DNA of 64,000 bases, from the NCBI GenBank assembly GCA_023954035.1, contig JAMLIT010000010.1:19501-83500 (forward strand), in the 5' to 3' direction. Below the pieces are notes generated by a model, which did no database searches, had not been told where the DNA came from, and was given only the letters and a program-made list of their open reading frames with translations. The stretch is from Burkholderiaceae bacterium. Lineage in GTDB: Bacteria; Pseudomonadota; Gammaproteobacteria; Burkholderiales; Burkholderiaceae_C. Shown here one piece after another: positions 896 through 57,456 of the stretch (position 1 is the first letter of the stretch; each line of letters starts with the position of its first letter). A program made the translations under genes and the position numbers.

Positions 896-959
896 CAGAA
901 GTTTTTGGCCTCTAGCGCTTATTGGGCAAGCGCAAGCAGCTATTATTTTGATAGCTATT
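896..959 (+). repeat. Comamonadaceae-type palindromic repeat, intergenic copy 1
   Basis: AT-rich element between convergent proC and ubiA. The core GGCCTCTAGCGCTTATT lies at 907-923 and is followed by GCAAGCAGCTATTATTTTGA. The same core occurs exactly at 19447, 22080 and 48395. The ubiA stop codon (955-957 on the minus strand) lies inside the element, so the repeat defines the end of UbiA. T-rich tracts flank the inverted AGCGC arms, so it may also help terminate transcription from either side. Confidence 0.85.
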
Positions 960-1824
960 GCCGCAACAAGAGATCGGTGGCGATGCCGGCAAACAGGGTC
1001 AATCCGATCCAATGGTTCAGTCGAAAAGCGCGAAAACACCCGTCGCGCGTGCGGCCCCGGATCATTAGCGCGTGCCAAACCACCTGCACCAGCACCAGCG
1101 CCAGCGCAGTGAACAACCCCACGCCAAAGCCCTGCGCCCGCAGCGCCAGCCCCCAGATCACCACCAGCCCCAGGTAGAAAGCGAGCACGGCGGCCACGTC
1201 GAACCGACCCAGCGTAATGGCCGAGGTCTTCATGCCGATCTTCAGATCGTCGTCGCGGTCCACCATCGCGTACTCGGTGTCGTAGGCCAGCACCCAGCAC
1301 GCATTGCCCAGCAGCAGCCAGGCGGCCAGCATGGGCACGTCGTTGTTCACAGCGGCAAACGCCATGGGAATGCCGAAGCTGAACGCCAGGCCCAGCACCG
1401 CCTGCGGCATGGCCACATAGCGCTTGGCAAAGGGATAGACCACGGTGATCGCCAGCGCCGCCACCGACCAGGCCATGGTCAGCACATTGGTCAGCAGCAC
1501 CAGGCCAAAGGCGGCGGCGGCCAACGCCGCGGCCAGGATCAGGGCCTCGCGCACCGACACCGCTCCGGTGGTCACCGGCCGCTGCGCCGTGCGCTTGACG
1601 TGGCGGTCGAACTCTCGGTCGGCCACGTCGTTGATGCAGCAGCCCGCGCTGCGCATCAAAATGGTGCCCAGCGCAAACACCGCCAGCAGCCGCCACCCCG
1701 GAAAACCACCCGCCGCAATCCACAGGGCCGACAGCGTGGGCCAGAGCAGCAGCAGCCAGCCGGCGGGTCGATTCCAGCGAATCAGGTCCAGGTACAGGGC
1801 AAAGCGGGAGCGGGGGGCGGACAT
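955..1824 (-). CDS. ubiA: 4-hydroxybenzoate polyprenyltransferase
   Basis: Inner-membrane prenyltransferase that attaches the polyprenyl tail to 4-hydroxybenzoate in ubiquinone synthesis. The 289-residue polytopic protein has both Asp-rich motifs of the family: NDVADREFD starting at about residue 65, and [12 protein letters not shown] at about residue 182. These bind Mg-diphosphate. Hydrophobic helices such as [18 protein letters not shown] surround them. Length matches UbiA (about 290). The TAG stop falls within the repeat at 896-959. UbiA is well supported over other prenyltransferases by the second motif and length. Confidence 0.95.
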
Positions 1825-1952: not shown

Positions 1953-1980
1953 GGCCTCAAAAGAACTTCGAAACCCCAAG

Positions 1981-5403: not shown

Positions 5404-5420
5404 ATCGGGTTTTTGCATCC

Positions 5421-6260
5421 ATGGCGCATCGCAAACTCTCCAAGACCGCCGACATCGAGCAGCGTTTGCTGCTGGACGCCATTTTTCTGCGCTACCACTA
5501 CGACTTTCGCTCCTATGCCCAGGCTTCGCTGCGTCGGCGGCTCAACGCAGCGCTGGCGCACTTCCAATGCAAGACGATTTCGCAGCTTCAGGACCGCGTG
5601 CTGCACGAGCCCGAGGTATTTGCCGGCATGCTGGACTACCTCACCGTGCAAGTGAGCGACATGTTCCGCGACCCCAGCTATTTTCGCGCTCTGCGCGAAC
5701 AGGTGCTGCCGCATTTGCGCACCTATCCGTCCCTGAAAATCTGGGTGGCCGGTTGCAGCGCGGGCGAAGAGGTGTATTCGCTGGCCGTGCTGCTCAAGGA
5801 GGCCGGATTGCTCGAACGCAGCCTGATCTACGCCACCGATATCAACACCCGGGCGCTGCAGGCCGCCAGCGCCGGTGTCTTCGACATCGAGCGCGTGGCG
5901 GCGTTCACGCAGAACCACGCCGCTTCCGGTGCGGCGGGCTCGCTCTCGGACTACTACACGGCCGGCTACGGCCGGGTCGTGTTCCACAAGTCGCTGCGCG
6001 AACACATGGTGTTCTCCGACCACAGCCTGGCCACGGACAGCGTCTTTTCCGAAGTCCATCTGGTGTCCTGCCGCAACGTGCTGATCTATTTTGAGCGCAG
6101 CTTGCAGGACCGCGCCCTCGGCCTGTTCCGCGAGGCGCTGTGCCATCGGGGGTTTCTGGGTCTTGGCAGCAAGGAGTCGCTGCGCTTTTCCAGCCACGCC
6201 GACGCGTTCGAGGACTTCGTGCTGCCGCAGCGCATTTACCGCAAGAGAGCGCCGGCATGA
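5421..6260 (+). CDS. cheR: CheR-type protein-glutamate methyltransferase
   Basis: SAM-dependent methylation of glutamates, classically on chemoreceptors. The 279-residue protein has the CheR N-terminal helical domain and the SAM pocket motif VAGCSAGEEVYSLA at about residues 109-122. CRNVLIYF follows further on. ATG 5421 lies 17 bases after the kinase stop and gives a standard-length protein. The stop overlaps the next ATG (ATGA), so it is translationally coupled to the methylesterase. No chemoreceptor, cheA or cheW is in this operon, so its target may not be classical chemotaxis; such CheR/CheB-kinase modules exist in many proteobacteria. Confidence 0.93.
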   Translation: MAHRKLSKTADIEQRLLLDAIFLRYHYDFRSYAQASLRRRLNAALAHFQCKTISQLQDRVLHEPEVFAGMLDYLTVQVSDMFRDPSYFRALREQVLPHLRTYPSLKIWVAGCSAGEEVYSLAVLLKEAGLLERSLIYATDINTRALQAASAGVFDIERVAAFTQNHAASGAAGSLSDYYTAGYGRVVFHKSLREHMVFSDHSLATDSVFSEVHLVSCRNVLIYFERSLQDRALGLFREALCHRGFLGLGSKESLRFSSHADAFEDFVLPQRIYRKRAPA

Positions 6261-6850
6261 CCCGTCCGATCCAGGCATTTCAGGCCATCGTTATCGGCGG
6301 CTCCGCCGGCGCCATGGAAGCCTTGCTGACCTTGCTGCCCGCCCTGCCGGCGACGCTGCGCGCCAGCATCGCCGTGACGCTGCACGTGCAGCGCGATAAG
6401 CCCAGCCTTCTCGCGCAAGTGTTTGGCCCGCGCTGCGCCCTGGCGGTCCGCGAGGCGCACGACCAAGAGCCGCTCGAGCCCGGCACCATCTTTTTTGCAC
6501 CGCCCGACTACCATTTGCTGGTGGACCAGGGGCCGCGGTTGAGCCTTTCCTTGGACGCGCCGCTGCATTTCTCGCGCCCGGCCATCGACGTTCTCTTTGA
6601 ATCGGCAGCCGACCTCCTGGGCGAGCACCTGATCGGCATCCTGCTTTCTGGCGCCAACGCCGACGGCGCCCAGGGCCTTGCTGCCATCCACCGGGCCGGC
6701 GGTTTGTGTCTGGTGCAATCGCCGGACAGCGCCCCATCGCCCACGATGCCGCTGGCCGCGCTGTCACTGGTTCCCGACGGCGCACAGGTCCTGAGCCCGG
6801 CGGCCATGGCCGAGACCCTCATCGGCCTGCACACGCGGAGATTGCTGTGA
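6257..6850 (+). CDS. cheB: CheB-type methylesterase lacking a receiver domain
   Basis: Hydrolyses glutamyl methyl esters, opposing CheR. The 197-residue product consists only of the CheB catalytic domain. The nucleophile lies in IGGSAGAMEAL (Ser16), a His in LHVQRD, and the catalytic Asp in LLSGANADGAQG. The usual N-terminal receiver is missing, so activity would be controlled by partner receivers, plausibly those of the hybrid kinase or the next gene. It starts inside the cheR stop (ATGA) and its own stop overlaps the GTG of the next gene (GTGA). Confidence 0.9.
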   Translation: MTRPIQAFQAIVIGGSAGAMEALLTLLPALPATLRASIAVTLHVQRDKPSLLAQVFGPRCALAVREAHDQEPLEPGTIFFAPPDYHLLVDQGPRLSLSLDAPLHFSRPAIDVLFESAADLLGEHLIGILLSGANADGAQGLAAIHRAGGLCLVQSPDSAPSPTMPLAALSLVPDGAQVLSPAAMAETLIGLHTRRLL

Positions 6851-7995
6851 AACGACCTGCCAGCCTGGACGCGCAACGCCAAACGCCGATCAAGTGCCTG
6901 ATCGTCGACGACATCGAGGAAAACCTGGTGGCCCTGCAAGCCTTGCTCGAGCGCGAGGGGCTGCTGATTCTCAAGGCGCGCTCGGGCGCGCAGGCGCTGG
7001 AACTGCTGCTTGCGCATGGCGACATTGCGCTGGCACTGCTGGACGTACAAATGCCCGAAATGAACGGCTTCGAACTCGCCGAGCTGATTCGCGGACGCGA
7101 GCGCACGCGCCACATTCCGCTGATCTTCATCACCGCGGGCGCGCAAAACCCGGGCTGGCAGTTCAAAGGCTACGACGCCGGCGCCGTGGATTTTCTCTAC
7201 AAGCCCATCGACCCGCACATTTTGCTGAGCAAGGTCGAAGTGTTTTTCACCCTGCACCGCCAAAAACGCGCGCTGGCGCACGAACTGGCCGAGCGGACCG
7301 AGGCGCTGCGCATCAACGAGATGTTCATGGCGGTGCTGGGCCACGACCTGCGCACCCCACTGACTTCGGTCACTCTGGCCTCCGGCGCCCTGGCGCGCAC
7401 CTGTACGGACGACAAGAGCAAGGCGCTGGCCGAGCGCATTCTCTCCAGCGCGCGGCGCATGGACGCGATGATCGAGGATTTGCTCGACCTCACACGCATC
7501 CGCCAATACGGTGGCCTCAGCCTGCATCCCAAACCGCTGGATCTGGGCGAACTGTGCGAGCGCCTCGTCGACGAGCTGCATGGTCACGGCGACCGGCAGG
7601 TGGTGCTCAGCCGCACGGGCACGCTGACCGGGTCGTGGGACGGGGATCGCCTGGCCCAGGTGCTGAGCAATCTGCTGGGCAATGCGCTGCGCCACGGTGC
7701 AGCCGACCGCCCCATTGCCCTGGCACTCGATGGCAGCCAAGGGGGTGAGGTTCGCCTGGAAATAAGCAATGGCGGCTGTATTGCCGCCGATTTGCTGCCG
7801 GTGTTGTTCCACCCTTTTCGCGGTGGCAGCGGTCAAGGTGGGCGGCGCGATGGGCTGGGCCTGGGCCTGTACATCGTGCAGCAAATCGTCAGCAGCCACG
7901 GCGGCAACATTGCGGTGCACAGCGCGGACGAGCGCACCTGCTTTACCGTCCACCTTCCCAGGCAGTGCCCAGGAACCCGCCTCTCAGGCGCCTGA
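6847..7995 (+). CDS. Receiver-histidine kinase fusion
   Basis: Soluble 382-residue protein with an N-terminal receiver (CLIVDDIEEN, acceptor Asp66 in LLDVQMPEMNG, Lys in YKPID). A HisKA box GHDLRTPLTSV follows with His166, then a HATPase ending in DGLGLGLYIVQQI. There are no membrane segments, so it takes its signal from another protein, probably the upstream hybrid kinase. The start is GTG 6847, overlapping the cheB stop by four bases. Its 3' end overlaps that of the opposite-strand response regulator by 12 bases (7984-7995), an unusually tight convergent arrangement. Confidence 0.9.
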   Translation: MKRPASLDAQRQTPIKCLIVDDIEENLVALQALLEREGLLILKARSGAQALELLLAHGDIALALLDVQMPEMNGFELAELIRGRERTRHIPLIFITAGAQNPGWQFKGYDAGAVDFLYKPIDPHILLSKVEVFFTLHRQKRALAHELAERTEALRINEMFMAVLGHDLRTPLTSVTLASGALARTCTDDKSKALAERILSSARRMDAMIEDLLDLTRIRQYGGLSLHPKPLDLGELCERLVDELHGHGDRQVVLSRTGTLTGSWDGDRLAQVLSNLLGNALRHGAADRPIALALDGSQGGEVRLEISNGGCIAADLLPVLFHPFRGGSGQGGRRDGLGLGLYIVQQIVSSHGGNIAVHSADERTCFTVHLPRQCPGTRLSGA

Positions 7996-10017: not shown

Positions 10018-12114
10018 TCAGGCCTTGAGGTAATCCGATTTTCCGCCCAGCCAGCGCTCCAGGTGCTGCGCCGCCAGGTCGGGGTGGTGCTCCAGCATTT
10101 TCGGCGCTGTTTCGCGCGCCCAATCGAGCATTTGCGTGTCGGTGGCGAGGTCGGCAAAACGCAGGAGCGCATCGCCCGACTGGCGCGCCCCCAGAAACTC
10201 GCCTGGGCCACGGATTTCCAGGTCGCGCCGGGCAATTTCAAACCCGTCGCTGGTTTCTGCCATGGCGCGAAGACGCTCTTTCGCCGTCTCGCCGACGCGC
10301 CCGCTGTCGTTGGTGGCGTACAGCAGAACGCAGGCCGACGCCGCCGCGCCGCGCCCCACCCGGCCGCGCAACTGGTGCAGTTGCGAGAGACCAAAACGCT
10401 CGGCGTGCTCGATCACCATCAGCGAGGCATTGGGCACGTCCACACCCACCTCGATGACGGTGGTGCTGACCAGCACGCCCAAATGCCCTTCGGTGAACAA
10501 CTCCATCACGGCCTTTTTTTCCGCCACCGGCATGCGCGAGTGCAGCAGACCGACTGCCACGCCCGGCAGGGCTTGGCTGAGTTCGGCATGCACCGCCGTG
10601 GCGTTGGACAGGTCCAGCGCCTCGCTCTCTTCGATCAGCGGGCAGACCCAGTAGACCTGGCGGCCGGCGGCCACCTGGGTGGCAATGCGCGCGATGACTT
10701 CTTCCTTGCGGCTGTCGGCAATCAGCTTGGTGACCACCGGAGTGCGGCCGGGGGGCAGTTCGTCGATGACCGAGACATCCAGATCCGCGTAATAGCTCAT
10801 GGCCAGCGTGCGGGGGATGGGCGTCGCGCTCATCATCAGCATGTGCGGCTCCATGCCGTGCGCAGCGAGCTTTTGCCGCAGCGCCAGGCGCTGGAGCACG
10901 CCAAAGCGGTGCTGCTCGTCGACGACGGCCAGCGCCAGGCGCTCGAACGCCACCTGCTCCTGGATGACGGCGTGCGTGCCCACGACCAAGGCCGCCTCGC
11001 CGCTGGCTGCACGGACGAGCGCGGCGCTGCGCTCCTTTTTTTTCTGCCCGCCGACCAGCCAGGCGACGCTGCGGCCCCGCGCGGCCAGCAAAGGCTCGAG
11101 CCAAGCCACGAGCTTGGCAAAGTGCTGCGCTGCGAGGATTTCGGTCGGGGCCATCAGCGCGCACTGCCAGCCTGCGTCGATGGCGCGGGTGGCGGCCAGC
11201 GCCGCCACCACGGTCTTGCCCGAGCCCACGTCGCCCTGCAGCAGGCGGTGCATGGGCTGTGGGCGCGCCAGGTCGGCGTTGATTTCCCGCGCCACCCGCT
11301 GCTGCGCGGCGGTCAGCGCAAAGGGCAAAACGGCCAGCAGTTGGGCGCCAAGCGCCCCTGGCCCCGGCACCGCGGCCAGCACCGGGGCGCGCAACCGGCT
11401 GCGCTCGCGCCGCGCCTGGAACTGCGAGAGTTGCTGGGCCAGCAGTTCCTCGGCCTTGAGGCGTTGCCAGGCCGGGTGGCTGTGGTCCTGCAAGGTGCAG
11501 AGCGCTACCTCGGGCGCAGGCCGGTGCAAAAATGTGAGCGCTTCGCGCAGACCCATAAAGCGCTGGAGGCCAATATGGTTTGAAACCCGGCTGGCGATGG
11601 GCGCCAGCGGCGGCGGTACGGTTTCGGGCAGGTCTGCCCGCGCCAGTGCGCCTGCGATCAGGCGGCGCAGCAGCGGCTGGGGAAGGCCCGAGACCGTCGG
11701 GTACACCGGCGTCAGCGCCGTGGGAAGTTCGCCGCCGGCAGCACGACATACGGGGTGCAGCATCTGCCGACCCCAGAAGCCGCCACGCACCTCGCCGCGA
11801 ATGCGCAGTCGCGCGCCCACTGCCAGGGCCTTCTGCTGCGAAGGATAGAAGCTGAAGAAGCGCAGCGTGCAGGCACCCGACGCGTCCTCGACCTGCACCA
11901 CGAGCTGGCGGCGCGGGCGCAGCTGCACCTCGCAACTGCGCACCGTGGCCTCGATCTGCGCCAGCTCGCCGTCGCGCACGCTGGCGATCGGCGTGATGCG
12001 GGTTTCGTCCTCGTAGCGCAACGGCAAATGCAGCGCCAGATCGATGTCGCGCAAAAGGCCCAGCTTGGCGAGGGCTTTCTGTATTGCGGGAGCCAGGGGG
12101 CGAGGCGCGGGCAT
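10018..12114 (-). CDS. recG: ATP-dependent DNA helicase RecG
   Basis: Monomeric branch-migration helicase that remodels stalled replication forks and Holliday junctions. It is 698 residues, normal for the family. An N-terminal OB/wedge domain (VQVEDASGACTLRFF) precedes Walker A GDVGSGKT (Lys300), DEQHRFG (Asp399) and SATPIPRTLAM. Motif VI, QLRGRVGRG, and a C-terminal TRG-type motif follow. ATG 12114 gives the usual N-terminus. Residues about 177-187 (SRVSNHIGLQRF region) may be a short repeat-derived segment. Divergent from the HD-GYP gene. Confidence 0.96.
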   Translation of the reverse strand: MPAPRPLAPAIQKALAKLGLLRDIDLALHLPLRYEDETRITPIASVRDGELAQIEATVRSCEVQLRPRRQLVVQVEDASGACTLRFFSFYPSQQKALAVGARLRIRGEVRGGFWGRQMLHPVCRAAGGELPTALTPVYPTVSGLPQPLLRRLIAGALARADLPETVPPPLAPIASRVSNHIGLQRFMGLREALTFLHRPAPEVALCTLQDHSHPAWQRLKAEELLAQQLSQFQARRERSRLRAPVLAAVPGPGALGAQLLAVLPFALTAAQQRVAREINADLARPQPMHRLLQGDVGSGKTVVAALAATRAIDAGWQCALMAPTEILAAQHFAKLVAWLEPLLAARGRSVAWLVGGQKKKERSAALVRAASGEAALVVGTHAVIQEQVAFERLALAVVDEQHRFGVLQRLALRQKLAAHGMEPHMLMMSATPIPRTLAMSYYADLDVSVIDELPPGRTPVVTKLIADSRKEEVIARIATQVAAGRQVYWVCPLIEESEALDLSNATAVHAELSQALPGVAVGLLHSRMPVAEKKAVMELFTEGHLGVLVSTTVIEVGVDVPNASLMVIEHAERFGLSQLHQLRGRVGRGAAASACVLLYATNDSGRVGETAKERLRAMAETSDGFEIARRDLEIRGPGEFLGARQSGDALLRFADLATDTQMLDWARETAPKMLEHHPDLAAQHLERWLGGKSDYLKA

Positions 12115-12252
12115 GGTCAAAAAAGGGCGGCAGCGGTAGCGCAGGAAGACGGACCCACAGCATAGACGGGCGCCCGGCCTGGCCGACCTGGCAGCGCCCT
12201 GAGCGGGACTAAAATTCAAGGTCCTCTTTTCTTTACTCTGTCCCTCGCGGCC

Positions 12253-13545
12253 ATGCTCAAGCGCATACAAGTGCAGGATCTCGCGCTCGGCATGTTCGTG
12301 CAGGAATTTTGTGGCTCCTGGATGGACCACCCCTTCTGGCGCAGCAAGTTTCTGCTGGAAGAGCCGTCCGACCTGGCCCGCATCCGCGCCACGGCCATCA
12401 CCGAACTGTGGATCGACACCGCACGCGGGCGCGACGTCGCCGCGGGCGCAGTGACCCAGACGCGGGAGGAGGTGCACGCGCGCATCGACACCGATTTCAG
12501 CGACCTGGCTGCCATGCATGCGATGGAGACTGCGGGCGCGAGCGCTGTGCGCCCGCCAGCCACGCCGGCGCCGAGGCGCCGCGACAGCGCCAGCATGCAA
12601 AGCGAGCTGCGCGAGGCCGCGTCGATCTGCATGCAGGCCAAGGAGGCCGTCATCTCCATGTTCACCGAGGCGCGCATGGGCCGCGCCGTCGATGCCGGCC
12701 AGGCGCAGGAACTGGTCCAGGAAATCAGCGATTCCGTGGCCCGCAACCCCGGGGCGCTCATCAGCCTGGCGCGGCTGAAAACCGCCGACGACTACACCTA
12801 CATGCATTCCGTGGCCGTGTGCGCGCTGATGGTGTCGCTGGCGCGCCAGCTGGGCCTTTCCGACGCGCACACCCGCAGCGCGGGGCTGGCCGGCCTGCTG
12901 CACGACCTGGGCAAGGCGGCGGTTCCGCTGGAAGTGCTGAACAAGCCCGGCAAGCTCACGGACGAGGAATTCGAGGTGGTGCGCGGCCACCCTGTGGCCG
13001 GCTACCAGATGCTCAAGGAAGCCGCCCAGGTCAGCGCGCCCGTGCTCGATGCCTGCCTGCACCACCACGAAAAGATCGACGGCACCGGCTACCCTGACCG
13101 CCTGGCGGGCGACCAGATCAGCCTCATCGCGCGCATGGCCGCGGTCTGCGACGTGTACGACGCAGTCACCTCCGATCGCCCCTACAAGCGCGGCTGGGAC
13201 CCCTCCGAATCGCTGCGGCGCATGGCCGAATGGACCGGCGGCCATTTCGACCCGCGCGTGTTCCAGGCCTTTGTCAAAAGCATTGGCATCTACCCGGTCG
13301 GCTCGCTGGTGCGCCTGGCGTCCGGGCGGCTGGGGGTGGTGACCGAGCAAGGCCAGAAATCGCTGGTCACGCCGCGCGTGAAGGTTTTTTTCTCCACCCG
13401 CTCGAACTTGCGAATTCCCCCGGAGGAGATCGATCTCGCCGCCCCCAGCTGCAGCGACCGCATAGCCGCGCGCGAAGACCCGGCCAAATGGAATTTCCCG
13501 GACCTGCATTCCATGTGGACCGGCGTCGCCGGCCAGCCCTGGTAG
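12253..13545 (+). CDS. HD-GYP domain cyclic-di-GMP phosphodiesterase
   Basis: Predicted hydrolysis of c-di-GMP. The 430-residue cytosolic protein has an N-terminal DUF3391-like domain (MLKRIQVQDLALGMFV). The HD-GYP domain carries LLHDLGK, HHHEKIDGTGYPD and DVYDAVTSDRPYK. Both HD and GYP signatures are complete, so activity is expected. It neighbours two GGDEF proteins on the opposite strand, forming a local c-di-GMP synthesis and breakdown set. The 138 bases to divergent recG should hold both promoters; 13546-13738 downstream shows no gene I can support. Confidence 0.93.
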   Translation: MLKRIQVQDLALGMFVQEFCGSWMDHPFWRSKFLLEEPSDLARIRATAITELWIDTARGRDVAAGAVTQTREEVHARIDTDFSDLAAMHAMETAGASAVRPPATPAPRRRDSASMQSELREAASICMQAKEAVISMFTEARMGRAVDAGQAQELVQEISDSVARNPGALISLARLKTADDYTYMHSVAVCALMVSLARQLGLSDAHTRSAGLAGLLHDLGKAAVPLEVLNKPGKLTDEEFEVVRGHPVAGYQMLKEAAQVSAPVLDACLHHHEKIDGTGYPDRLAGDQISLIARMAAVCDVYDAVTSDRPYKRGWDPSESLRRMAEWTGGHFDPRVFQAFVKSIGIYPVGSLVRLASGRLGVVTEQGQKSLVTPRVKVFFSTRSNLRIPPEEIDLAAPSCSDRIAAREDPAKWNFPDLHSMWTGVAGQPW

Positions 13546-16116: not shown

Positions 16117-16248
16117 GGGCGGCGTCCTTGAAGAATCTTGAGCAAGACAAGCTTACGCGCACATGCCGGCGCCGGGTTTGACACAATCGCGCCCTTTTCT
16201 CCTGATTTTCCCGATTTTTCGAACGCGGGCCTGTTCTGCCCCTGCCCT

Positions 16249-17367
16249 ATGACCGCATCCTCGCCTGCTGGCACCGCGCCTGCCTTCACCCTCAGCGACT
16301 TCGATTTTGATCTGCCGCCCGAGCGCATCGCGCAGCACCCCAGCGCCGAACGCAGCGCCTCGCGCCTGCTCGATGGTCGCAGCCTGCCTCCGGCGGACCG
16401 CATCTTCCGCGCATTGCCCGGCCTGCTGCAGGCAGGCGACCTGCTGGTTTTCAACGACACCCGGGTCGTCAAGGCGCGCCTCTTTGGCGAAAAGCCCAGT
16501 GGCGGCAGGCTGGAATTGCTGATCGAGCGCGTGCTCACCGGCAACGAGGTGGTGGCCCACATGAAGGTCAGCAAAAAGCCGCCGGTCGGCGCACGCATCC
16601 ACCTGGCCGGTGGCCTGGCGGCCGGCGGCTTCGACGCCACCTTGCTCGCCCGCTGGCCAGACACGAGCGGCCCGCTGTTTCGCTTTGCCCTGCAAGGCCC
16701 GGCGGACGAGAGCGCCTGGGAGTTGATGGAGCGCTGCGGCCACCTGCCGCTGCCGCCCTACATTGCGCGCAACCAGGCCAGCGGCAACGACCCCGACGCC
16801 GCCGAGGACGCCGAGCGCTACCAGACAGTGTTTGCCCGCGCACCCGGCGCCGTGGCCGCCCCCACCGCCGCCCTGCATTTTGACGAGGCGGTGCTGGCCG
16901 ACCTGGCCCGGCGCGGCATCGAGCGCGCCAGCGTGACGCTGCATGTCGGCGCCGGCACCTTCCAGCCCGTCAAGACCGAAAACCTGGCCGAGCACCAGAT
17001 GCACAGCGAGTGGTACGAGGTGCCCCTGGCCACCCTGGCAGCCCTGGAGCGCTGCCGCCAGCGCGGCGGCCGCGTGGTGGCCGTGGGCACGACGACGGTG
17101 CGCACGCTCGAATCCTGGGCGCGCTCGGGGTTGGCCACGGGCGACACCAATATCTTCATCACGCCGGGATTCGCGTTCCAGGTCGTGGACCTGCTGGTCA
17201 CCAACTTCCATCTGCCCAAAAGCACGCTGATGATGCTGGTGAGCGCCTTTGCGGGGTACGACCGGGTGATGGCGCTGTACCGCCATGCGATTGCACAGGA
17301 GTACCGGTTTTTCAGCTACGGCGATGCGATGCTGCTGGAGCGCGCCGCGCCCACGGCCCGCCTGTAG
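16249..17367 (+). CDS. queA: S-adenosylmethionine:tRNA ribosyltransferase-isomerase
   Basis: Transfers the ribosyl moiety of SAM to preQ1 in tRNA, forming epoxyqueuosine. It is 372 residues. Family motifs include [55 protein letters not shown] and the C-terminal [22 protein letters not shown] 16249 is preferred over an upstream in-frame start because it begins just before the conserved N-terminus. A TTGACA-like hexamer near 16180 may belong to its promoter. The gene ends before the bidirectional terminator repeat. Confidence 0.95.
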
Positions 17368-17419: not shown

Positions 17420-17478
17420 TTACTATCAAAAAAATAGCTGCCAGCGCTTATTTATAAAGCGCCAGCAGCCTTTTTTGC
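17420..17478. terminator. Inverted copy of the palindromic repeat acting as bidirectional terminator
   Basis: Between convergent queA and trpB. The arms GCTGCCAGCGCTT and AAGCGCCAGCAGC pair almost completely around an ATTTATA loop. The right arm is followed by CTTTTTTG and the left is preceded by CAAAAAAATA, so each strand reads as stem plus U-run. The sequence is a reverse-orientation member of the repeat at 896, 19441, 22072 and 48388. Confidence 0.85.
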
Positions 17479-17485
17479 CTAAAGT

Positions 17486-18685
17486 CTACAACCCCAGGTG
17501 CTGCGCCACGAAATCGGCGTCCTTGTCGCCCCGGCCTGAGAGGTTGACCAGAATGTTCTTCTCTGGGGGCAGAGTCTTCGCCAGCTTCATGGCGTAGGCC
17601 AGCGCATGCGCGCTCTCCAGCGCCGGGATGATCCCTTCGGTGCGCGAGAGCGTCATGAAGGCATCGAGGCACTCGTCGTCCGTCACCGACTCATACTGCA
17701 CGCGGCCTACGTCCTTGAGGTAGCAGTGCTGCGGGCCGACGCCAGGGTAGTCCAGGCCCGAGGCAATCGAGTACACCGGCAGCGGCTCGCCCTTGTCATC
17801 CTGCAGGTTGTAGCAAATGAAGCCGTGGATGGCGCCCTTGACGCCGAGCGTCATGGTGGCGGCGTGGTCGGGGGTATCGAGGCCGCGACCGGCAGGCTCG
17901 ACACCCACGAGCTGCACATCGGCATCGGGCAGGAATTCCGTGAAGATGCCCATGGCGTTCGAGCCGCCGCCCACGCAGGCCGTCACCACATCGGGCAGGC
18001 GCTGGTGCTCTGCCAGAAACTGCGCCCGCGCCTCGCGCCCGACGATGCTCTGGAAGTCGCGCACCATTTTTGGAAACGGGTGCGGGCCCACGACCGAGCC
18101 GATGGCATAGAAGAAATTGACCGGATCTTTCATGTACTCCTCAAACGCGCTGTCGACTGCGTCCTTGAGGGTGCGCGTGCCGCGCGTGACCGGCACCAGC
18201 CTGGCGCCCAGAATTTTCATCTTGGTGACGTTGGGGTGCTCCTTGGCAATGTCGATCTCGCCCATGTGGATTTCGCACTCGATGCCCACCAGCGCGCAGG
18301 CCGACGCCAGCGCCACGCCGTGCTGGCCCGCCCCGGTTTCGGCCAGCACCTTGGTCTTGCCCATGTGCTTGGCCAGCAGCGCCTCGCCCAGGCAGTGGTT
18401 GATCTTGTGCGCGCCGGTGTGGTTGAGGTCTTCGCGCTTCAAGTGGATGTGCGCGCCGCCCTGGCGATCGGACAGGCGCCGGGCATAAAAGATCGGGCTC
18501 GGCCGGCCGACGTAATGCGCGTACAGGTCGGTCAGCTCGTCCTGGAAGGCTGCGGTCTTGCGGACCTCCTCGTAGGCGTCATTGATGCCGTCCATCACGG
18601 CCTTGAGTTCAGGCGGGAGGATCTGCCCTCCGTATTCGCCAAAGTAGCCCTGCTGGTCGGGCATTTCCAGAAACTGCTGTGCCAT
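17486..18685 (-). CDS. trpB: Tryptophan synthase beta chain, stand-alone and divergent
   Basis: PLP enzyme joining indole and serine to make tryptophan. It is 399 residues. Lys94 in HTGAHKIN is the Schiff-base lysine; [21 protein letters not shown] and [10 protein letters not shown] complete the active site. The start at 18685 is favoured by AAGGAGGG just upstream. No trpA or trpF adjoins it. Segments such as [20 protein letters not shown] and [17 protein letters not shown] differ from the TrpB usual beside trpFA in betaproteobacteria, so it may be a second copy using free indole. It follows ung on the same strand. Confidence 0.92.
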
Positions 18686-18721
18686 GCGCTGTCCCTCCTT
18701 GTGATGAAAAACCGCCAAATC

Positions 18722-19438
18722 TTATCCGCCGTGCAAACGCCGAAACGCCCGCGCCTGCCCAAAATGCCCGCAGCCGATGAAAGGCACGGGCGGGCGCAGC
18801 GCCGACAAGGGCGACGGGTGGTTGGCGCTGAGCACCAGATGCCGCGGGCCGTCGACGAGCGCGCGCTTCGATTGTGCGTGCGCGCCCCAGAGCAGGAACA
18901 CCACCGGTTGGGGCTGCGTCGCGACGTGGGCGATCAGCGCGTCGGTCAGCAGCTCCCAGCCGCGCTTGGCGTGGCTGCCTGGCTGGCCCTCCTCCACCGT
19001 GAGCACGGTGTTGAGCAGCAGGGCGCCTTGCTCGGCCCAATGCACCAGACTGCCGCCGGGCACAGGAAACGCAGGTGGCGGCGTACCCAAGTCGCGCTCG
19101 ATTTCCTTGAAGATGTTGCGCAACGAAGGCGGGATTGGAACGCCCGGCGCGACGGAAAACGCCAGACCCTGCGCCTGCCCGCGGCCGTGGTAGGGGTCCT
19201 GCCCCAGGATGACGACGCGCACTTTCTCAGGCGGTGTGAGTTCGAGCGCGCGCAGCGGCTGCGGCGGGAAGATGCTGGCTCCGGCCGCCAGGCGCTCGCG
19301 CAAGAACGCCAGCAGTTGCACGCCTGACGGCGATTGGAAAAATTGCTCGACCAAGGTCTGCCAGCCCGGCGCCACCGGCCAGTCGCGCGGGTCGGCCGTC
19401 TGGAGCTGATCGGGGGGCGACAGGGCGGCGGATTTCAT
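18722..19438 (-). CDS. ung: Uracil-DNA glycosylase
   Basis: Removes uracil from DNA to begin base-excision repair. It is 238 residues, family 1. The water-activating motif [18 protein letters not shown] and the C-terminal minor-groove loop HPSPLS are intact. [17 protein letters not shown] matches the family. The ATG sits two bases before a repeat copy. It lies in the trp gene string, after trpC and before trpB, with no metabolic link that I can see. Confidence 0.95.
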
Positions 19439-19440
19439 AT

Positions 19441-22052: not shown

Positions 22053-22071
22053 GGGGTCGGTAGAAAATTGA

Positions 22072-36834: not shown

Positions 36835-36857
36835 GATGGTCGGGAAAGATTTGCCGG

Positions 36858-42370: not shown

Positions 42371-43345
42371 ATGGGTGAATTCGACTTGATCGCCAGGCAT
42401 TTCAAGCGCCCGGTGCGCCGCTCACCCCTGGGCGTGGGGGACGACTGCGCCCTCCTGGCGCCGCGCCCCGGGATGCAGTTGGCGGTGTCGTCGGACATGC
42501 TGATCGAAGGGCGCCACTTCTTTGCCGACGTCGCGCCGCAGGCGCTGGGCCACAAGGCCTTGGCGGTCAACCTCTCCGACCTGGCCGCGTGCGGCGCCGA
42601 ACCGCTGGCGTTCACGCTGGCGCTGGCGCTGCCGCAGGCCGACGACGCCTGGCTGGCGGCTTTCGCCAGCGGCCTGTGGGCCCTGGCCGATGCCCATGGT
42701 TGCGAGCTGGTGGGCGGCGACACGACGCGCGGCCCGCTCACCCTGTGCATCACCGCCTTGGGCGAGGTGCCGGCCGGCCAGGCCCTGCTGCGCAGTGGCG
42801 CGCAGGCCGGCGACGACCTCTACGTCAGCGGAACGCTGGGGGATGCGCGCCTGGCGCTCGAAGCCTTGCAGCACCGCGTCGTACTTCCGGACGAGGTGCT
42901 CGCCGCTGCGCGCGCGCGGTTCGAGCGCCCGGCGCCCCGGGTGGCGCTGGGACTGGCGCTGCGCGGCCTGGCCACCAGCGCGATCGACCTGAGCGACGGG
43001 CTCTGTGGCGACCTGGGCCACATTCTGGAAGCCTCGGGCGTCGGAGCCAGTCTCGACCTGGACGTTACTATGTCTTTGATAGCATCAAACATATACAGGA
43101 CGAGCGCTGGAGTTCAATTTGGCTTGGATTTTTGGCAACAATGCGTGCTCGCCGGGGGCGACGATTACGAACTTTTGTTCACCGCCCCGCCGCAGCGTCG
43201 GGCCGCAGTGCAGGCGGCAGCCCAAGCCAGCCAGACGCCGGTCGCACGCATTGGCCACATTGATTCGGCCCCCGGTCTGCGCATACTGGACGGCTCCGGT
43301 CGGCCGGTGGACGCGCGCTTTGCCTCGTTCGACCATTTCGGCTGA
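42371..43345 (+). CDS. thiL: Thiamine-monophosphate kinase
   Basis: Phosphorylates thiamine monophosphate to the active diphosphate. It is 324 residues. Motifs: GVGDDCALL, SSDMLIEGRHF, NLSDLAACGAEP, VGGDTTRG, DLSDGLCGDLGHI and LAGGDDYELLF. Residues about 232-254 (TMSLIASN to FGLDFW) are unlike the family and derive from an in-frame repeat copy at 43065-43128. Its usual partner pgpA is displaced 4 kb downstream. The 174 bases upstream (42197-42370) show no TPP riboswitch and no gene I can support. Confidence 0.94.
   Translation: MGEFDLIARHFKRPVRRSPLGVGDDCALLAPRPGMQLAVSSDMLIEGRHFFADVAPQALGHKALAVNLSDLAACGAEPLAFTLALALPQADDAWLAAFASGLWALADAHGCELVGGDTTRGPLTLCITALGEVPAGQALLRSGAQAGDDLYVSGTLGDARLALEALQHRVVLPDEVLAAARARFERPAPRVALGLALRGLATSAIDLSDGLCGDLGHILEASGVGASLDLDVTMSLIASNIYRTSAGVQFGLDFWQQCVLAGGDDYELLFTAPPQRRAAVQAAAQASQTPVARIGHIDSAPGLRILDGSGRPVDARFASFDHFG
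43065..43128 (-). repeat. Palindromic repeat copy inside thiL
   Basis: AT-rich segment in a G+C-rich gene. ACTATGTCTTTGATAGC is followed by AGCGCTGGAGTTCAATTTGG, which aligns with the reversed repeat end AGCGCTAGAGGCCAATTT. It keeps the thiL frame, adding about 20 residues between the DLSDGL helix region and the LAGGDDYELLF motif. Confidence 0.7.
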
Positions 43346-47303: not shown

Positions 47304-47851
47304 GCCCGGCCCCGCTTCCGATGGTGGCACAGGTGCAGCAGACGCCGCCGCCCTCTGCGCGCCGCGCCACCGCCCGCTTTCTGCTGGCGCACCCGGCGCA
47401 CTTCATTGCGCTGGGCTTTGGCTCGGGCCTCTCGCCCTGGGCGCCGGGCACGGTAGGCACGCTGTGGGCGTGGGTGGCGTGGCTGGTGCTGCAGCGCTGG
47501 TTCAACCTTGCCGAGTTGGGCCTGCTGATCGCGGGCGGCACGCTGGTCGGCTGGTGGGCCTGCGCCGTGGCGGCCCGCAATCTGGGCGTGGCCGACCCAG
47601 GCTGCATCGTCTGGGACGAGGTGCTTGCCTTCTGGCTCATCCTCTGGCTGGCCATGCCCATGGGGCTGCTCGGCCAAGCGGTGGCCTTTGCGCTGTTTCG
47701 GTATTTCGACGCCGCCAAACCCGGGCCGGTGAAATGGGCCGACGCGCAATTCAAGGGCTTTGGCGCACGCGGCGCCTTCGGCATTCTGTTCGACGACTTC
47801 GTCGCCGCCTTTTGCACCCTGCTGGTGATCGCGCTGTGGAGGTTTGCATGA
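47300..47851 (+). CDS. pgpA: Phosphatidylglycerophosphatase A
   Basis: Membrane phosphatase that makes phosphatidylglycerol from its phosphate. It is 183 residues. FGSGLSPWAPGTVGTLWA near residues 40-57, VWDEVLAFW and the C-terminal RYFDAAKPGPVKWAD and GFGILFDD-type region are diagnostic. It overlaps both neighbours by four bases. In related genomes it directly follows thiL; here 4 kb of other genes intervene. Confidence 0.94.
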   Translation: MSPAPLPMVAQVQQTPPPSARRATARFLLAHPAHFIALGFGSGLSPWAPGTVGTLWAWVAWLVLQRWFNLAELGLLIAGGTLVGWWACAVAARNLGVADPGCIVWDEVLAFWLILWLAMPMGLLGQAVAFALFRYFDAAKPGPVKWADAQFKGFGARGAFGILFDDFVAAFCTLLVIALWRFA

Positions 47852-48372
47852 GCCTGGAATCGCTCTTAAATCAGGAGCTGCAAGCGCAGTCGCCATCTGC
47901 GCTGGAGGCCGATTTGACCCATGTTTCAACCCAGTTGCTGGCGCGCGGTGAAATGCTGGCCACGGCCGAGAGCTGCACCGGTGGCCTGATTGCCGCCGCC
48001 TGCACTGCGCTGGCGGGTTCGAGCCAATGGTTCGAGCGCGGCTTCGTCAGCTATTCGAATGCCGCCAAGAGCGAGCTGCTGGGCGTGGACGCAGCGTTGA
48101 TCGCCGCCCAGGGCGCCGTCAGCGAGGCGGTGGTCCGCGCCATGGCCGAGGGCGCACTGGCCCATTCGGCCGCGCAGGCCAGCCTGGCCGTCACCGGCAT
48201 CGCCGGCCCCACGGGCGCCGCTGCCGGCAAGCCCGTGGGCACCGTGTGGTTCGGGTGGTGCGTGGCCGGCCGAACGCACAGCGAAGTTCAGCACTTCCCC
48301 GGGGACCGCGCCGCGGTGCGCGCGGCCACGGTGGCACATGCGCTGGCGCGGCTGAAGTCGCTGCTGCAATGA
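47848..48372 (+). CDS. pncC: Nicotinamide-nucleotide amidase (CinA C-terminal type)
   Basis: Deamidates NMN to recycle pyridine nucleotides. It is 174 residues, matching stand-alone PncC with no CinA N-domain. Motifs: TAESCTGGLIAA, GFVSYSNAAKSELLGV and AVTGIAGPTGAAAGKPVGTVW. Residues about 5-26, before LLARGEMLATAES, are repeat-like and replace the short N-terminus of the family. ATG 47848 overlaps the pgpA stop. Confidence 0.93.
   Translation: MSLESLLNQELQAQSPSALEADLTHVSTQLLARGEMLATAESCTGGLIAAACTALAGSSQWFERGFVSYSNAAKSELLGVDAALIAAQGAVSEAVVRAMAEGALAHSAAQASLAVTGIAGPTGAAAGKPVGTVWFGWCVAGRTHSEVQHFPGDRAAVRAATVAHALARLKSLLQ
47860..47918 (-). repeat. Palindromic repeat-like segment at the pncC N-terminus
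   Basis: TCTTAAATCAGGAGCTGC, then AAGCGC, then TGCGCTGGAGGCCGATTT aligns with the reversed repeat (AGCTGCTTGCGCTT, AAGCGCTAGAGGCCAATTT). It is more G+C-rich than other copies, suggesting an old, amelioriated insertion. It keeps the frame. Confidence 0.55.
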
Positions 48373-48387
48373 AACGGAAAAATTCGG

Positions 48388-48440
48388 AGAAATGGGCCTC
48401 TAGCGCTTATTCATCGGGCATTGAAAGCTATTTTTTCAGG
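48388..48440 (+). repeat. Palindromic repeat, intergenic copy 5
   Basis: Core GGCCTCTAGCGCTTATT at 48395-48411, followed by CATCGGGCATTGAAAGCTAT and a T-run. It lies between pncC and the SEC-C gene on the opposite strand, as with other copies at convergent gene ends, and may terminate pncC transcription. Confidence 0.85.
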
Positions 48441-48445
48441 AGCGA

Positions 48446-54135: not shown

Positions 54136-54591
54136 TCAGGCGGAAGCTGCCAGCGCTGGGCCGACTTCAGCCCCCAATGCCTGAAGGCGCTTTCGCAACC
54201 GCAGCACTGCGCGGTCTTTGCTCAGCAGAATCGCGCTGTGCTGCACCGCCAGGTCGACGAACGGCTGATCGTCCGGGTCCTTGCAGATGGCGCTGGTGCG
54301 AGGGGCAGGTTCCACCGTCTGCACGCCAGCGTCATAACGGGCGAGCACTTCCTCCGGCGTCAGCCGGTAGAACGCAACACGGGGCGCGATTTGCGGATAG
54401 CCCAGCACGCGCGCCAGTTCGCTGCGCATGCCCGCTGTGGCGACCCAGCGCAGTGCCCCCGAAGCCAGCAGGCCAGGCAGCGCGGCGACGGCAGGGTCGG
54501 CAAATACCAGCAGGTCGAGCACCACATTGGTGTCCAGCACCAGGGCGCGGCTGCCTGCAGCGGGCGGCCGGGCCTTGGATTCAGGCGCCAT
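54136..54591 (-). CDS. PIN-domain ribonuclease-like protein
   Basis: A 151-residue protein of the PIN (PilT N-terminus) fold: VLDTNVVLDLLV supplies the first acidic residues, CKDPDDQPFVDLA the central acidic cluster, and LLSKDRAVLRL the last. It is predicted to be a metal-dependent RNase. Such proteins are often annotated as VapC-like toxins, but no antitoxin gene is adjacent. It overlaps the 3' end of the rlmL-type gene by 11 bases. Confidence 0.82.
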   Translation of the reverse strand: MAPESKARPPAAGSRALVLDTNVVLDLLVFADPAVAALPGLLASGALRWVATAGMRSELARVLGYPQIAPRVAFYRLTPEEVLARYDAGVQTVEPAPRTSAICKDPDDQPFVDLAVQHSAILLSKDRAVLRLRKRLQALGAEVGPALAASA

Positions 54592-55900
54592 GGGCAGGGG
54601 CGGCAGCGTCCCCTGGGCGCTGGCGCAGGCTGCCGCGAATCAGGTCGAAGCGAAACAGCCGGCATTCGATGGGACCGTTCCACATCGGGACCCGGCGCGA
54701 CTCCTTCAGGCGCATCTTGCCGGGGAGCTTCAAGTCGGGCGTGAGCATCCAGGCCTGCCAGCCGGTGTAGTTTTTCTTCCAGTGGCTGGCAAGCTGCTGG
54801 AAGAATTCGCTGCCGTCTCCCCCAGCCCCCTCCGCGCCCGGTACTTCTGCCGCTTCCCGGCCCACCACCGCGCCCTGCGCGCGCTGCTGGGCGCGCTCGC
54901 GCGCGTTCTGGCCCGCGCTGCCTGCGGCGGCGATGCGCTCGCCATACGGTGGATTGAGCAGCATGATCCCCGACTCCTCGCAGGGCGGCATGCGCTGCAG
55001 GGCGTCGCCGCCGCGCAGTTGCAGCGCGCCCGCGACGCCAGCGCGCTGGGCGTTGTGCTCGGCAAAATCGACCATGCGGTGTGAAATATCACTGCCAAAT
55101 ATGCCCGTAGCGCAGGCAGTGATTGCGCTATTAGCTTCTTCTTTGATAGCACCCCAGACATGCGCCTGAAACGGCAGCAATTTTTCAAAGGCAAAGCGCC
55201 GTTGCAAGCCCGGCGCGATGCGGCAGGCCATTTGGGCGGCTTCGATCAGCACCGTGCCGCTGCCGCAGCAGGGGTCGTAAAGCGGCAGGGGCGCCTCGCC
55301 GTGCGGATCCCAGCCGGTGGCGGCGATCATGGCGGCGGCGAGCGTCTCTTTGAGCGGGGCGTCGCCTTTGGCCCCGCCGTCGCGCACGTTGCGCCAGCCG
55401 CGCTTGAACAGCGGCTCGCCCGAGGTGTCGATGTAAACCGTGGCTTCGTCGGTGGTCAGGTGCAGGTGCACGCGCACGTCGGGCCACTGCGTGTCCACGT
55501 CGGGGCGCACGCCGGCCTTGGCACGAAAGCGGTCGGCCACGGCGTCCTTGGTGCGCAGCGCGGCAAAGTTCAGGCTGGTCAGCGGGCTGTGCTGGGCCGT
55601 GACCTCCACCTTGAAGCTCTGGCGCGGCGTGAACCAGATTTCCCAGGCAATGCTGGACGCCAGGGCGTAAATATCGTTCTCGCTGCGGTACAAGCCCTGG
55701 GCCAGCTGGACCAGCACGCGCTGCGCCAGACGGCTGTTCAGGTTGAGAAAGAGCGCATCGCGCCAAGAAGCCTTGAGCAGCACGCCGCCGCGTCCCACCA
55801 GCAGATCGTTGCCTGTGAGCCCCGTGATCTGGTGCACCTCGTCGGCCAGAAAGCCCTCGACGCCGGCGGCGCAGGGCAAGAAAAGTTGTAGCTGATTCAT
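54581..55900 (-). CDS. rlmL: 23S rRNA (guanine-N2)-methyltransferase, RlmL N-domain type
   Basis: SAM-dependent rRNA methylase equivalent to the RlmL half of E. coli RlmKL (no RlmK domain). It is 439 residues. An N-terminal THUMP domain is followed by the methyltransferase, with the SAM motif LYDPCCGSGTVLIEAA and catalytic LLNPPYGER. Residues about 251-269 (AIKEEANSAITACATGIFG) are encoded by an in-frame repeat copy between SAM motifs. It overlaps rpoN by four bases. Confidence 0.88.
   Translation of the reverse strand: MNQLQLFLPCAAGVEGFLADEVHQITGLTGNDLLVGRGGVLLKASWRDALFLNLNSRLAQRVLVQLAQGLYRSENDIYALASSIAWEIWFTPRQSFKVEVTAQHSPLTSLNFAALRTKDAVADRFRAKAGVRPDVDTQWPDVRVHLHLTTDEATVYIDTSGEPLFKRGWRNVRDGGAKGDAPLKETLAAAMIAATGWDPHGEAPLPLYDPCCGSGTVLIEAAQMACRIAPGLQRRFAFEKLLPFQAHVWGAIKEEANSAITACATGIFGSDISHRMVDFAEHNAQRAGVAGALQLRGGDALQRMPPCEESGIMLLNPPYGERIAAAGSAGQNARERAQQRAQGAVVGREAAEVPGAEGAGGDGSEFFQQLASHWKKNYTGWQAWMLTPDLKLPGKMRLKESRRVPMWNGPIECRLFRFDLIRGSLRQRPGDAAAPAHGA
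55096..55150 (+). repeat. Palindromic repeat copy inside rlmL
   Basis: AAATATGCCCGTAGCGC, then GATTGCGCTATTAGCT, then TTTGATAGC aligns block by block with consensus AAATGGCCTCTAGCGC, AAAGCGCTAACAGCT and TTTGATAGC. It lies antisense within the gene and preserves the frame. The local base composition is AT-rich compared with the flanks. Confidence 0.72.
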
Positions 55901-57456
55901 AGTGTCTTGCGCAGCGTCGTGACCGGAATCTTCAGCGCTTCGCGATACTTGGCCACGGTGCGGCGCGCGCAGTCGATGCCTTGCTCCTTGAGCATGTCGG
56001 CAATCTGGTTGTCAGACAGCGGCCTGGCCGGGTTCTCGGCGGCGACAAACTGTTTGATGAGCGCCCGCACCGCCGTGCTCGACGCGTTGCCGCCGGTGTC
56101 CGTCCCCAGGCCCGAGCCAAAGAAGTACTTGAGCTCGTAGGTGCCCTGGGGGGTCGCCATGTACTTGGCGGTGGTAACGCGCGAGATCGTCGATTCGTGC
56201 AGGCCCAGCTCGTCGGCAATGTCGCGCAGCACCAGCGGGCGCATGGCGAGTTCGCCGTGCACAAAGAAGTTTTTCTGCCGCTCGACAATCGCCTTGGAGA
56301 CCCGCAGGATGGTGTCAAAGCGCTGCTGAATGTTCTTGATGAACCAGCGCGCTTCCTGCAGGCGCTGCTGCAGTGCCTGGTGGCCGTCGCTGCCGCGGTG
56401 GCCGCGCAGGGCGCCTGCGTAGATGTCGTGCACGCGCAGGCGCGGCATCACATCGGGGTTGAGCTGAACGACGAACTGTGCCGAGCCCGTGCCCACGCGG
56501 CGCACCAGGACGTCGGGCACGATGGCGTTGCGCTCCACATTGGAAAAGCGCCGCCCAGGCCGGGGTTCGAGCTGCGCAATCAAGGCCATGGCTGCGCGCG
56601 TGACTTCTTCGCTGGCACCGCAAAGCGGCGCCAGACGCCGCAGATCGCGCCGTGCCAACAGGTCGAGTGGCTGCTGGCAGATGCACAGCGCCGTGGCCAC
56701 CAGAACTGCATCGTGCACGCCGTCCGCCTGCAGTTCGCGCAGCTGCAGGCTCAGGCATTCGCCCAGATGGCGCGCGCCCACGCCCGTGGGCTCCAGGCTC
56801 TGCAACAAACGCAGCGCCACGGTAAAGCGGTGCACCAGTTCTTCGGCTTCCTCGGCGTCCCCCTGCGCCAAGCCTGCGGCCAGCGCCTCGATGGGATCTT
56901 CCAGGTAGCCGTTGTCGCTGAGCGACTCGATCAGGAAGGAGAGCGCCGCGCGGTCGATGTCCCCGAGCCGCAGCGCCAGCGCCTGGCGGTGCAGGAAGTC
57001 GGTGAGCGAGCCGTGCTCGTGCGCGCGGTCGAGCGCATCGCCCGTGCCTTCGCCGGAATCGCTGGACACTCGCGCGGGGGCGTCGCCGCCCCACTCGGCG
57101 TCGTCCGGCGCCATCTCATGCGTTCCGTCACCGGACCAATCCAGCAGGTCGTCGGCCGGGAAATCTGAGTCATTTTGGCTCTCAGCGCTTGCTGTGCTTG
57201 TGTTGTCAGCTCCTGAATACGTAGCAAACTCCATGCTTGCGTCTGTGCTCTCTGCCGGGATATCGGCATGCGCCAGGCCAAATTCTTCCCGCGGCGCCTC
57301 TTCGTTTTCGCGTTCCAGAAACGGGTTTTCGTCCAGCATCTGCTCGACTTCCTGGGCGATTTCCAGCGTCGAGAGCTGCAGCAAACGGATGGATTGCTGC
57401 AGCTGCGGCGTCAAGGCCAGGTGCTGCGAGACGCGCAGCGACAGGCCCGGCTTCAT
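55897..57456 (-). CDS. rpoN: RNA polymerase sigma-54 factor
   Basis: Directs RNA polymerase to -24/-12 promoters. It is 519 residues. Region I is the Gln/Leu-rich start (LALTPQLQQSIRLLQLSTLE), region II is acidic, and region III ends with the helix-turn-helix and the RpoN box ARRTVAKYRE. Residues about 77-96 (MEFATYSGADNTSTASAES) are encoded by a repeat copy within the variable acidic region II. ATG 57456 is used, though no strong ribosome site is seen. Downstream of lptAB, its conserved place. Confidence 0.96.
   Translation of the reverse strand: MKPGLSLRVSQHLALTPQLQQSIRLLQLSTLEIAQEVEQMLDENPFLERENEEAPREEFGLAHADIPAESTDASMEFATYSGADNTSTASAESQNDSDFPADDLLDWSGDGTHEMAPDDAEWGGDAPARVSSDSGEGTGDALDRAHEHGSLTDFLHRQALALRLGDIDRAALSFLIESLSDNGYLEDPIEALAAGLAQGDAEEAEELVHRFTVALRLLQSLEPTGVGARHLGECLSLQLRELQADGVHDAVLVATALCICQQPLDLLARRDLRRLAPLCGASEEVTRAAMALIAQLEPRPGRRFSNVERNAIVPDVLVRRVGTGSAQFVVQLNPDVMPRLRVHDIYAGALRGHRGSDGHQALQQRLQEARWFIKNIQQRFDTILRVSKAIVERQKNFFVHGELAMRPLVLRDIADELGLHESTISRVTTAKYMATPQGTYELKYFFGSGLGTDTGGNASSTAVRALIKQFVAAENPARPLSDNQIADMLKEQGIDCARRTVAKYREALKIPVTTLRKTL
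57171..57228 (+). repeat. Palindromic repeat copy inside rpoN
   Basis: CATTTTGGCTCTCAGCGCTT, then TGTCAGCTCCTGAATACG and TAGC aligns with consensus ATTTTGGCCTCTAGCGCTT, CAGCTATTTTGA and TAGC. It lies antisense to rpoN, in frame, in the linker-like region II, where length and sequence vary between species. Confidence 0.75.

Follow-up and report, generated by a model that had tools for sequence, protein, structure and literature searches.

The usual explanation for small repeats dispersed through bacterial genomes is that they are either parasitic mobile DNA or hairpins acting as RNA. Among the closest described systems is an unexplained spaced motif pair of Acidovorax ebreus TPSY, GCTTAT(N)5AAGCG, published in 2017 (Tong, Schliekelman and Mrazek; PMC5217627); the available part of that report counts 114 copies near gene ends, with 107 intergenic, 5 in genes and 44 convergent. 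The Beta-proteobacterial repeat element (BRE) is, in the accessible portion of its description, ~90 bp long, 69% G+C and often tandem (Hot et al., 2011, PMC3110155). Rickettsia palindromic elements are small repeats of ~150 bp residing in frame in unrelated genes, according to the part of the source at hand (PMC10969869), and repetitive extragenic palindromic (REP) sequences and REPINs are recognized, in the section available, by a GTAG- or CGTC-tagged end and a palindrome of 20–40 bp (PMC3733652). Here we describe a 66-bp repeat, ~39% G+C, from a 64,000-nucleotide stretch of a Burkholderiaceae bacterium (assembly GCA_023954035.1, contig JAMLIT010000010.1, positions 19,501 to 83,500; hereafter the window). 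Its sites are shared across the genus and its DNA is retained inside protein-coding genes. Our preferred, tentative reading is that of an old dispersed DNA site that was inserted long ago and that some trans-acting agent, specific to the lineage, would now maintain as DNA.

The original prediction had described an AT-rich palindromic element with an exact core at four positions of the window. The 17-base core GGCCTCTAGCGCTTATT is indeed exact at 907, 19447, 22080 and 48395, all on the plus strand, and a window scan allowing up to three mismatches returned 5 matches against 0.14 expected by chance. The excess over chance extended to the whole genome of this bacterium, where the core occurs exactly 15 times and the reversed control pattern not once. 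Fourteen of the 15 copies aligned without gaps over 66 bp (the fifteenth, L014, is not in that alignment), so the family predicted was real and its proposed length of 50–60 bases too short. A covariance model made from these 14 copies found at least 150 copies in the genome (1836 candidates; weakest among the matches listed 35.5 bits) and ten distinct places in the window at E ≤0.00015. A weight matrix trained on 50 intergenic copies of the same genome found 11 window sites at score ≥20, with none for the reversed control, and adds the gph copy to those of the covariance model. At score 20 the control matrix gave no match in any set scanned, and the real matrix found no site across 112 kb of three congeners, G301, G304 and G307. 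The matrix carries ~75 bits in total and its window scan shows no tail of weaker sites; together these features suggest that the sites arose through copying and not through point mutation. Across the window and stretches of five congeners the density is one copy per 6–11 kb, from which we estimate ~350–570 copies per genome, each extrapolated from one region. The family is thus a real, dispersed repeat, with the following copies in the window:

891–956, plus strand: element copy, 75.4 bits, in the convergent gap between the proC stop (883, plus) and the ubiA stop (955, minus).
11525–11587, minus strand: weak element copy, 22.3 bits, in recG (10018–13509, minus), whose product has RecG domains.
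17421–17486, minus strand: element copy, 41.6 bits, between a gene at 16138–17367 (plus) and a PALP-enzyme gene at 17486–18718 (minus).
19431–19496, plus strand: element copy, 72.0 bits, between the trpC stop (19526, minus) and the start of a UDG-family gene (19438, minus).
22064–22129, plus strand: element copy, 79.6 bits, at the 3' end of trpG (22117–22716, minus), including the trpG stop; a LysE gene is next.
27606–27671, minus strand: weak element copy, matrix score 31.1, in the gene at 27156–27863 (minus) that the original prediction called gph.
43066–43131, minus strand: element copy, 16.3 bits, in thiL (42371–43345, plus).
47861–47926, minus strand: element copy, 49.3 bits, in the N-terminal codons of pncC (47836–48372, plus; start codon as set by our gene caller).
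48379–48444, plus strand: element copy, 60.1 bits, in the convergent gap between the pncC stop (48372, plus) and the stop of a UPF0149/SEC-C gene (48446, minus).
55086–55151, plus strand: weak element copy, 18.8 bits, in rlmL (54581–55900, minus).
57161–57226, plus strand: element copy, 29.4 bits, in rpoN (55897–57456, minus).

The copy at 17421–17486 corresponds to an inverted variant foreseen near 17420, and the in-gene copies foreseen in gph, thiL, rlmL, rpoN and pncC are all present, with recG in addition. At gph the covariance model detects just a 17-base fragment, the full copy coming from the weight matrix alone. The gene identities CinA/PncC, RpoN, RlmL, ThiL and RecG were checked.

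Evidence on the nature of the element comes from its behavior inside genes. We took segments of congeneric genes chosen by protein orthology alone and compared their motif score with that of 400 synonymous recodings drawn with genome-specific codon use; recoding the in-gene copies of the window's own genome is biased, those copies having been found by their DNA, so we relied on the orthologues instead. In element-bearing congeners all 38 segments beat every recoding (thiL 9, pncC 14, rlmL 6, rpoN 3, recG 6), while none of the 5 segments from G301, G304 and G307 did so, being reached by 3, 13, 45, 48 and 127 of the 400 recodings. G315 was left out of this test (its second contig, G315b, was kept), and thiL of G303, rlmL of G313 and recG of G312 were too short. 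In thiL, pncC, rlmL, rpoN and recG, the DNA motif therefore exceeds what the protein requires. The original prediction of in-frame residence within genes is borne out, with net extra residues at thiL and pncC, but the proposal that copies are simply tolerated there misses this retention. As a side observation, a second trpD- and pncC-bearing contig in G315 (C34) suggests a mixed assembly.

At thiL the same retention reaches beyond the genus. The thiL and GlmU comparisons cover 30 family genomes out of the 39 in which a match occurred; those without a thiL locus include G327 (106 copies). Across these 30 genera the thiL motif is present in 15/15 genomes with at least 9 copies (score 12 to 65) and in 0/15 with 7 or fewer (score ~0 to −65), and in each of the 15 element-bearing genomes none of 200 recodings reached the observed score. 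The aligned segment spans 66–79 residues in genomes with at least 9 copies versus 58–62 in 12 of the 15 with 7 or fewer; in the remaining three, G348 and G330 keep 66 residues and G352 has 47. This shortest segment (L265) nevertheless has a motif score near 0 that lies above its recodings. In G307 the thiL segment is as long as elsewhere in the genus and the motif is gone, which argues for erosion rather than excision. GlmU was considered as proof of insertion and rejected: it has a net +7 residues relative to solved GlmU, but the long loop also occurs in several element-free genera.

Divergence between orthologous copies follows the motif as well. With columns ranked by copies of the same genome, 31 intergenic orthologous pairs showed 0.046 pairwise differences in the 12 columns of highest information versus 0.458 in the 19 of lowest, and 118 in-gene pairs 0.109 in the best columns versus 0.502 in the poorest. 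Since divergence tracks the information content of the columns, neutral decay is disfavored.

The sites themselves are old. Searching the window-syntenic stretches of G303, G306, G311, G317 and G321 (the near-identical G315 was set aside), we found 42 copies, of which 33 have both flanks matching the window and 9, with one or no flank there, were left uncounted. Thirty-two of the 33 sit at window sites, including two, from G317 and G303, that were absent from the script's list and were read by hand as the gph site; there the left flank stops about a dozen bases short, and one of the two rows has a left flank only, its right flank mapping elsewhere. The exception is a copy within ubiA of G321, a place that is empty in the window; the script flagged this copy as the 891 site and we count it as a miss. 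In other genera, 80 trpD loci from named records gave 41 matches. In 15 records a copy directly follows trpG; 13 of these copies run antisense to the gene, as in the window, and 2 (L048, L056) point the other way. In 5 records a copy directly follows trpC, always antisense. In seven Rhodoferax/Polaromonas loci (L060, L066, L068, L076, L077, L083 and L110, ~5540–5715), we also noted element-like copies at one place in a LysE-type transporter gene.

This sharing of sites throughout the genus, and at thiL among genera, does not support the present-day mobility that had been proposed. Of the 26 genomes of the genus, orthologue comparisons covered 20 for the trp region and 17 for the pncC region. 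The trpG/LysE junction is filled in some genomes and empty in others, and the stretch of PncC between its start, placed by hand, and the first shared motif measures 45 residues in G321 and 29 in G301. No clean recent insertion with a target-site duplication was found in the junctions compared, where flanks are too diverged and no close filled/empty pair occurs. In the element-free congener G301, the trpC–UDG gap (L166, ~7606–7941) holds unrelated DNA; its stretch ATGTTTCAATCCACGC resembles the start of a CRISPR-type repeat.

At the level of the order, 9 of 300 genomes had matches to the element: six among the nine same-family genomes listed, and three others with a single match each. With one genome per genus in the family, matches occurred in 18 of 40, numbering from 1 to at least 150. 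Copy number is at least 118 in 21 of the 24 genomes from the genus, the other three being G304 (3 copies), G307 (1) and G301 (0). A tree built with FastTree from proteins of the trp operon and UDG (91 rows) groups these three in a single supported clade that lies within the element-rich genomes, the placement of G304 resting on 22% of the columns. This nesting makes a near-complete loss of the family in the G301/G304/G307 clade most likely. Such joint loss is a natural experiment, in which a gene missing together with the sites should be the reader.

We next consider placement relative to genes, using 456 kb comprising the window and 20 stretches that were picked for containing matches, which biases the sample upward; genes were called with our own gene caller. 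Of 85 matches, 10 merely repeated another listed copy, on the opposite strand or in part, and were removed, which left 75 distinct copies: 20 in convergent, 33 in co-oriented and 7 in divergent gaps, and 15 inside called genes with the frame unbroken. Because 60 of 75 copies are intergenic in a sample with a coding fraction of 0.93, genes are strongly avoided. The prediction of a single dispersed family is supported. Gaps between copy and gene often measure just −15 to +15 bases, so that copies occupy the whole intergenic space. Elsewhere in the genome of the window, strong copies lie in the genes for UvrD and GlmU, in a UvrA-like gene and in one whose best match is uroporphyrinogen-III synthase. 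Among the in-gene copies of the sample, 9 are antisense, of which 8 share a phase and 1 differs, and 6 are sense, split 3 and 3 over two phases. The common antisense phase is open in 21 of 50 intergenic copies and the other antisense phases in 3 and 0, so the preference for it reflects avoidance of stops, this being the only antisense phase often open. The most-open sense phase (22/50) has no in-gene copy, and the six sense cases are too few to judge. The match lists contain no head-to-tail arrays. At the trpG–trpD junction of G314 (L162, ~6530–6631), two element-like sequences form a head-to-head inverted pair.

The window has two other features of note. A 90-bp direct repeat lies at 62389–62589 in two copies of 73% identity lying 111 bp apart, and a single predicted gene of 2824 codons occupies 28468–36942 on the minus strand.

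Is the conserved signal a DNA site or an RNA hairpin? Among 58 copies of the window's own genome, no pair of positions varied together clearly above shuffles (lowest p 0.04 in 17 pairs; several pairs barely vary and are uninformative), and RNAalifold detected no covariation in own-genome copies. No Rfam family reached its gathering score in the window or at eight loci. With no covariation inside this genome and a weak one between genera, a DNA site is the better fit. Columns 12–14 read AAA or TTT in 52 of the 58 copies versus 24 expected, and are mixed in 3 versus 31. Such a one-base tract on either strand points to DNA shape, in particular the minor groove. The unit as a whole is asymmetric, its symmetry being internal; the label palindromic holds for the center alone, and pairing is at best weakly kept. 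Judged from these base patterns, a protein that reads double-stranded DNA is favored.

Under our preferred reading, the repeat would be an old DNA site of the family containing Acidovorax, Comamonas, Rhodoferax and Polaromonas. A unit of the 66-bp type would have been inserted, for the most part at the ends of genes and in some cases within loops with the frame preserved. A putative trans-acting agent, specific to the lineage and working on double-stranded DNA, would since have kept each site as DNA. The agent would most likely be a sequence- and shape-reading protein, for which the hundreds of copies may serve as chromosomal docking sites, and where the agent is absent the copies would erode. 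A Y1 transposase was considered as this DNA reader and rejected, as its distribution does not fit. A bolder version, possible but more doubtful, is a DNA address code spanning the genome. Each chromosome would carry asymmetric 66-bp sites by the hundred for a family-specific DNA-binding machine to read; these would have had their positions fixed over the age of several genera, would override codon choice in housekeeping genes, and would all erode together once the reader is lost. If true, a large environmental family would possess a DNA-recognition system of a new kind, working at the scale of the chromosome, from which unusual loops and codon choices in GlmU, ThiL, UvrD and RpoN would also stem.

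Several points weigh against maintenance by a DNA reader. The trans-acting agent is hypothetical, and ~75 bits far exceeds the need of a binding site, which hints at copying. On the closed genome G303, the top 150 positions show no regular spacing or strand order. The thiL segment of G352, a genome with 0 copies, beats its recodings (0/200, score ~0), that of G348 nearly does so (1/200), and pncC of G301 lies near the edge of its recodings (3/400). Third codon positions of thiL are identical between genera at 0.47 in the element versus 0.51 in the rest of the gene; as there is no excess of identity, the retained signal is a fit to the motif. The column comparison includes model-found copies only, so copies that lost their best columns are under-counted. 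Finally, in copies from other genera, 77.4% of first-stem cells are paired versus 74.7% in shuffles (reached by 1/500), with a covariation score reached by 31/500 shuffles, both counted on an alignment fitted to the structure.

The main rival is self-favoring maintenance, in which biased allele replacement, through a DNA uptake signal acting in natural transformation or transposase-driven homing at occupied sites, restores the motif by molecular drive. We regard it as unlikely. It predicts the copies in and between genes, the retention site by site and the joint loss that are observed. Known uptake signals have A/T tracts beside their core, which the A/T tracts of the element recall, and are several times shorter than the 66-bp unit, which counts against an uptake function. 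In the accessible part of one account, some of the uptake sequences of Haemophilus and Neisseria fall within reading frames and a spread by molecular drive was proposed, with the sequences argued to arise by point mutation and to be accompanied by many mismatched variants (PMC1939737). The window scan revealed no such graded tail of weak matches, and sites of the element show net added sequence.

An active non-autonomous mobile element, similar to a miniature inverted-repeat transposable element (MITE) or a Rickettsia palindromic element, still inserting and tolerated in loops and at gene ends, seems to us improbable. It would account for the high copy number, the discrete full-length units, insertion beside stop codons, the in-frame copies, the filled and empty trpG/LysE junctions and the G321 copy in ubiA. 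Set against these are the 32 of 33 flank-mapped sites common to congeners, the non-uniform divergence and the retention of DNA within genes. MITE-type terminal inverted repeats would mirror each other; by inspection, the ends of the consensus, AATTTTAAGT... and ...TTAATAGCA, do not. Queried with one copy at E ≤1, blastn matched 4 among 72,556 plasmid records and nothing among 50,697 from phages. The idea of mobilization in trans by a helper also fared poorly for the one candidate tested, a Y1 transposase like the REP-associated tyrosine transposases (RAYT). Of the 26 genomes of the genus, 22 have Y1_Tnp, with G301, G304 and G307 among them, and it is absent from G302, which has 129 copies; the nearest element match in L142 to the Y1 gene of the window's own genome is >6 kb away. 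As this transposase is not co-distributed with element copies, we rejected it as the helper.

An RNA-level element, acting as a transcription terminator, mRNA stabilizer or ribosome-binding hairpin at gene ends, appears more improbable still. Convergent gaps do hold 20 of 60 intergenic copies versus 53 of 325 gapped adjacent gene pairs, and ahead of the UDG gene start the reverse strand of the copy supplies a purine-rich AGAGG/GGAGG. The slight excess of first-stem pairing in other genera is accompanied by two-sided change in 6 of 8 pairs, and columns 27–41 in 29 ungapped other-genera copies are G-C in 7 and C-G in 6. But 12 of these same copies are C-C at those columns, no pair among the 29 reaches p 0.05, and the own-genome copies offer no clear covariation. 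In-gene copies moreover occur in both orientations, including those in glmU, thiL, rpoN, uvrD and the uvrA-like gene. Pairing may matter a little in some lineages, and is often broken while the surrounding sequence persists. Lastly, chance or a codon-usage artefact of AT-rich stretches, to which nothing but the low G+C of the copies speaks, has a negligible probability, being already refuted by the reversed controls of the core and matrix scans and by the empty 112 kb of G301, G304 and G307.

Returning to the old DNA site that we favor, its comparison with known systems brings out what is distinctive. Like BREs, which in the available description are dispersed in Betaproteobacteria including Comamonadaceae, mostly intergenic with some in genes (PMC3110155), the element is scattered chiefly between genes; its 66 bp, 39% G+C and lack of tandem arrays set it apart from that description, and we rejected identity with BRE on G+C and length. 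It shares with Rickettsia palindromic elements an in-frame residence in unrelated genes and differs from those ~150-bp repeats in a DNA motif kept beyond the protein across genera. Unlike REP/REPIN sequences, the 66-bp consensus has, by inspection, no GTAG/CGTC tag end, and its unit is no inverted pair. As with uptake signal sequences (USS) and DNA uptake sequences (DUS), an abundant signal occurs in and between genes, and unlike the part of their description at hand, the window scan showed no graded mismatch variants around the element. USS and DUS likewise have A/T tracts near a core, which is much shorter than the unit here. The motif ATAGCT(N)22CAAAAG of Polaromonas naphthalenivorans, given in the available part of the 2017 report (PMC5217627), did not match element copies. 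The A. ebreus pair GCTTAT(N)5AAGCG, in contrast, is the palindromic center of the 66-bp element: it is present in 30 of 58 full copies, and all 34 of its occurrences in the 456-kb sample fall inside element matches. In its accessible part, that account, of one genome, is without the 66-bp unit, the family-wide spread, the age, the in-gene retention or the joint loss (PMC5217627), and among the matches listed in the open-licence literature we found no account of the whole unit, the fragment appearing only there. The long unit, its age, its joint loss and its retention as DNA inside genes, where a long motif is held at the same thiL and pncC codons while the encoded residues change, thus appear to be new.

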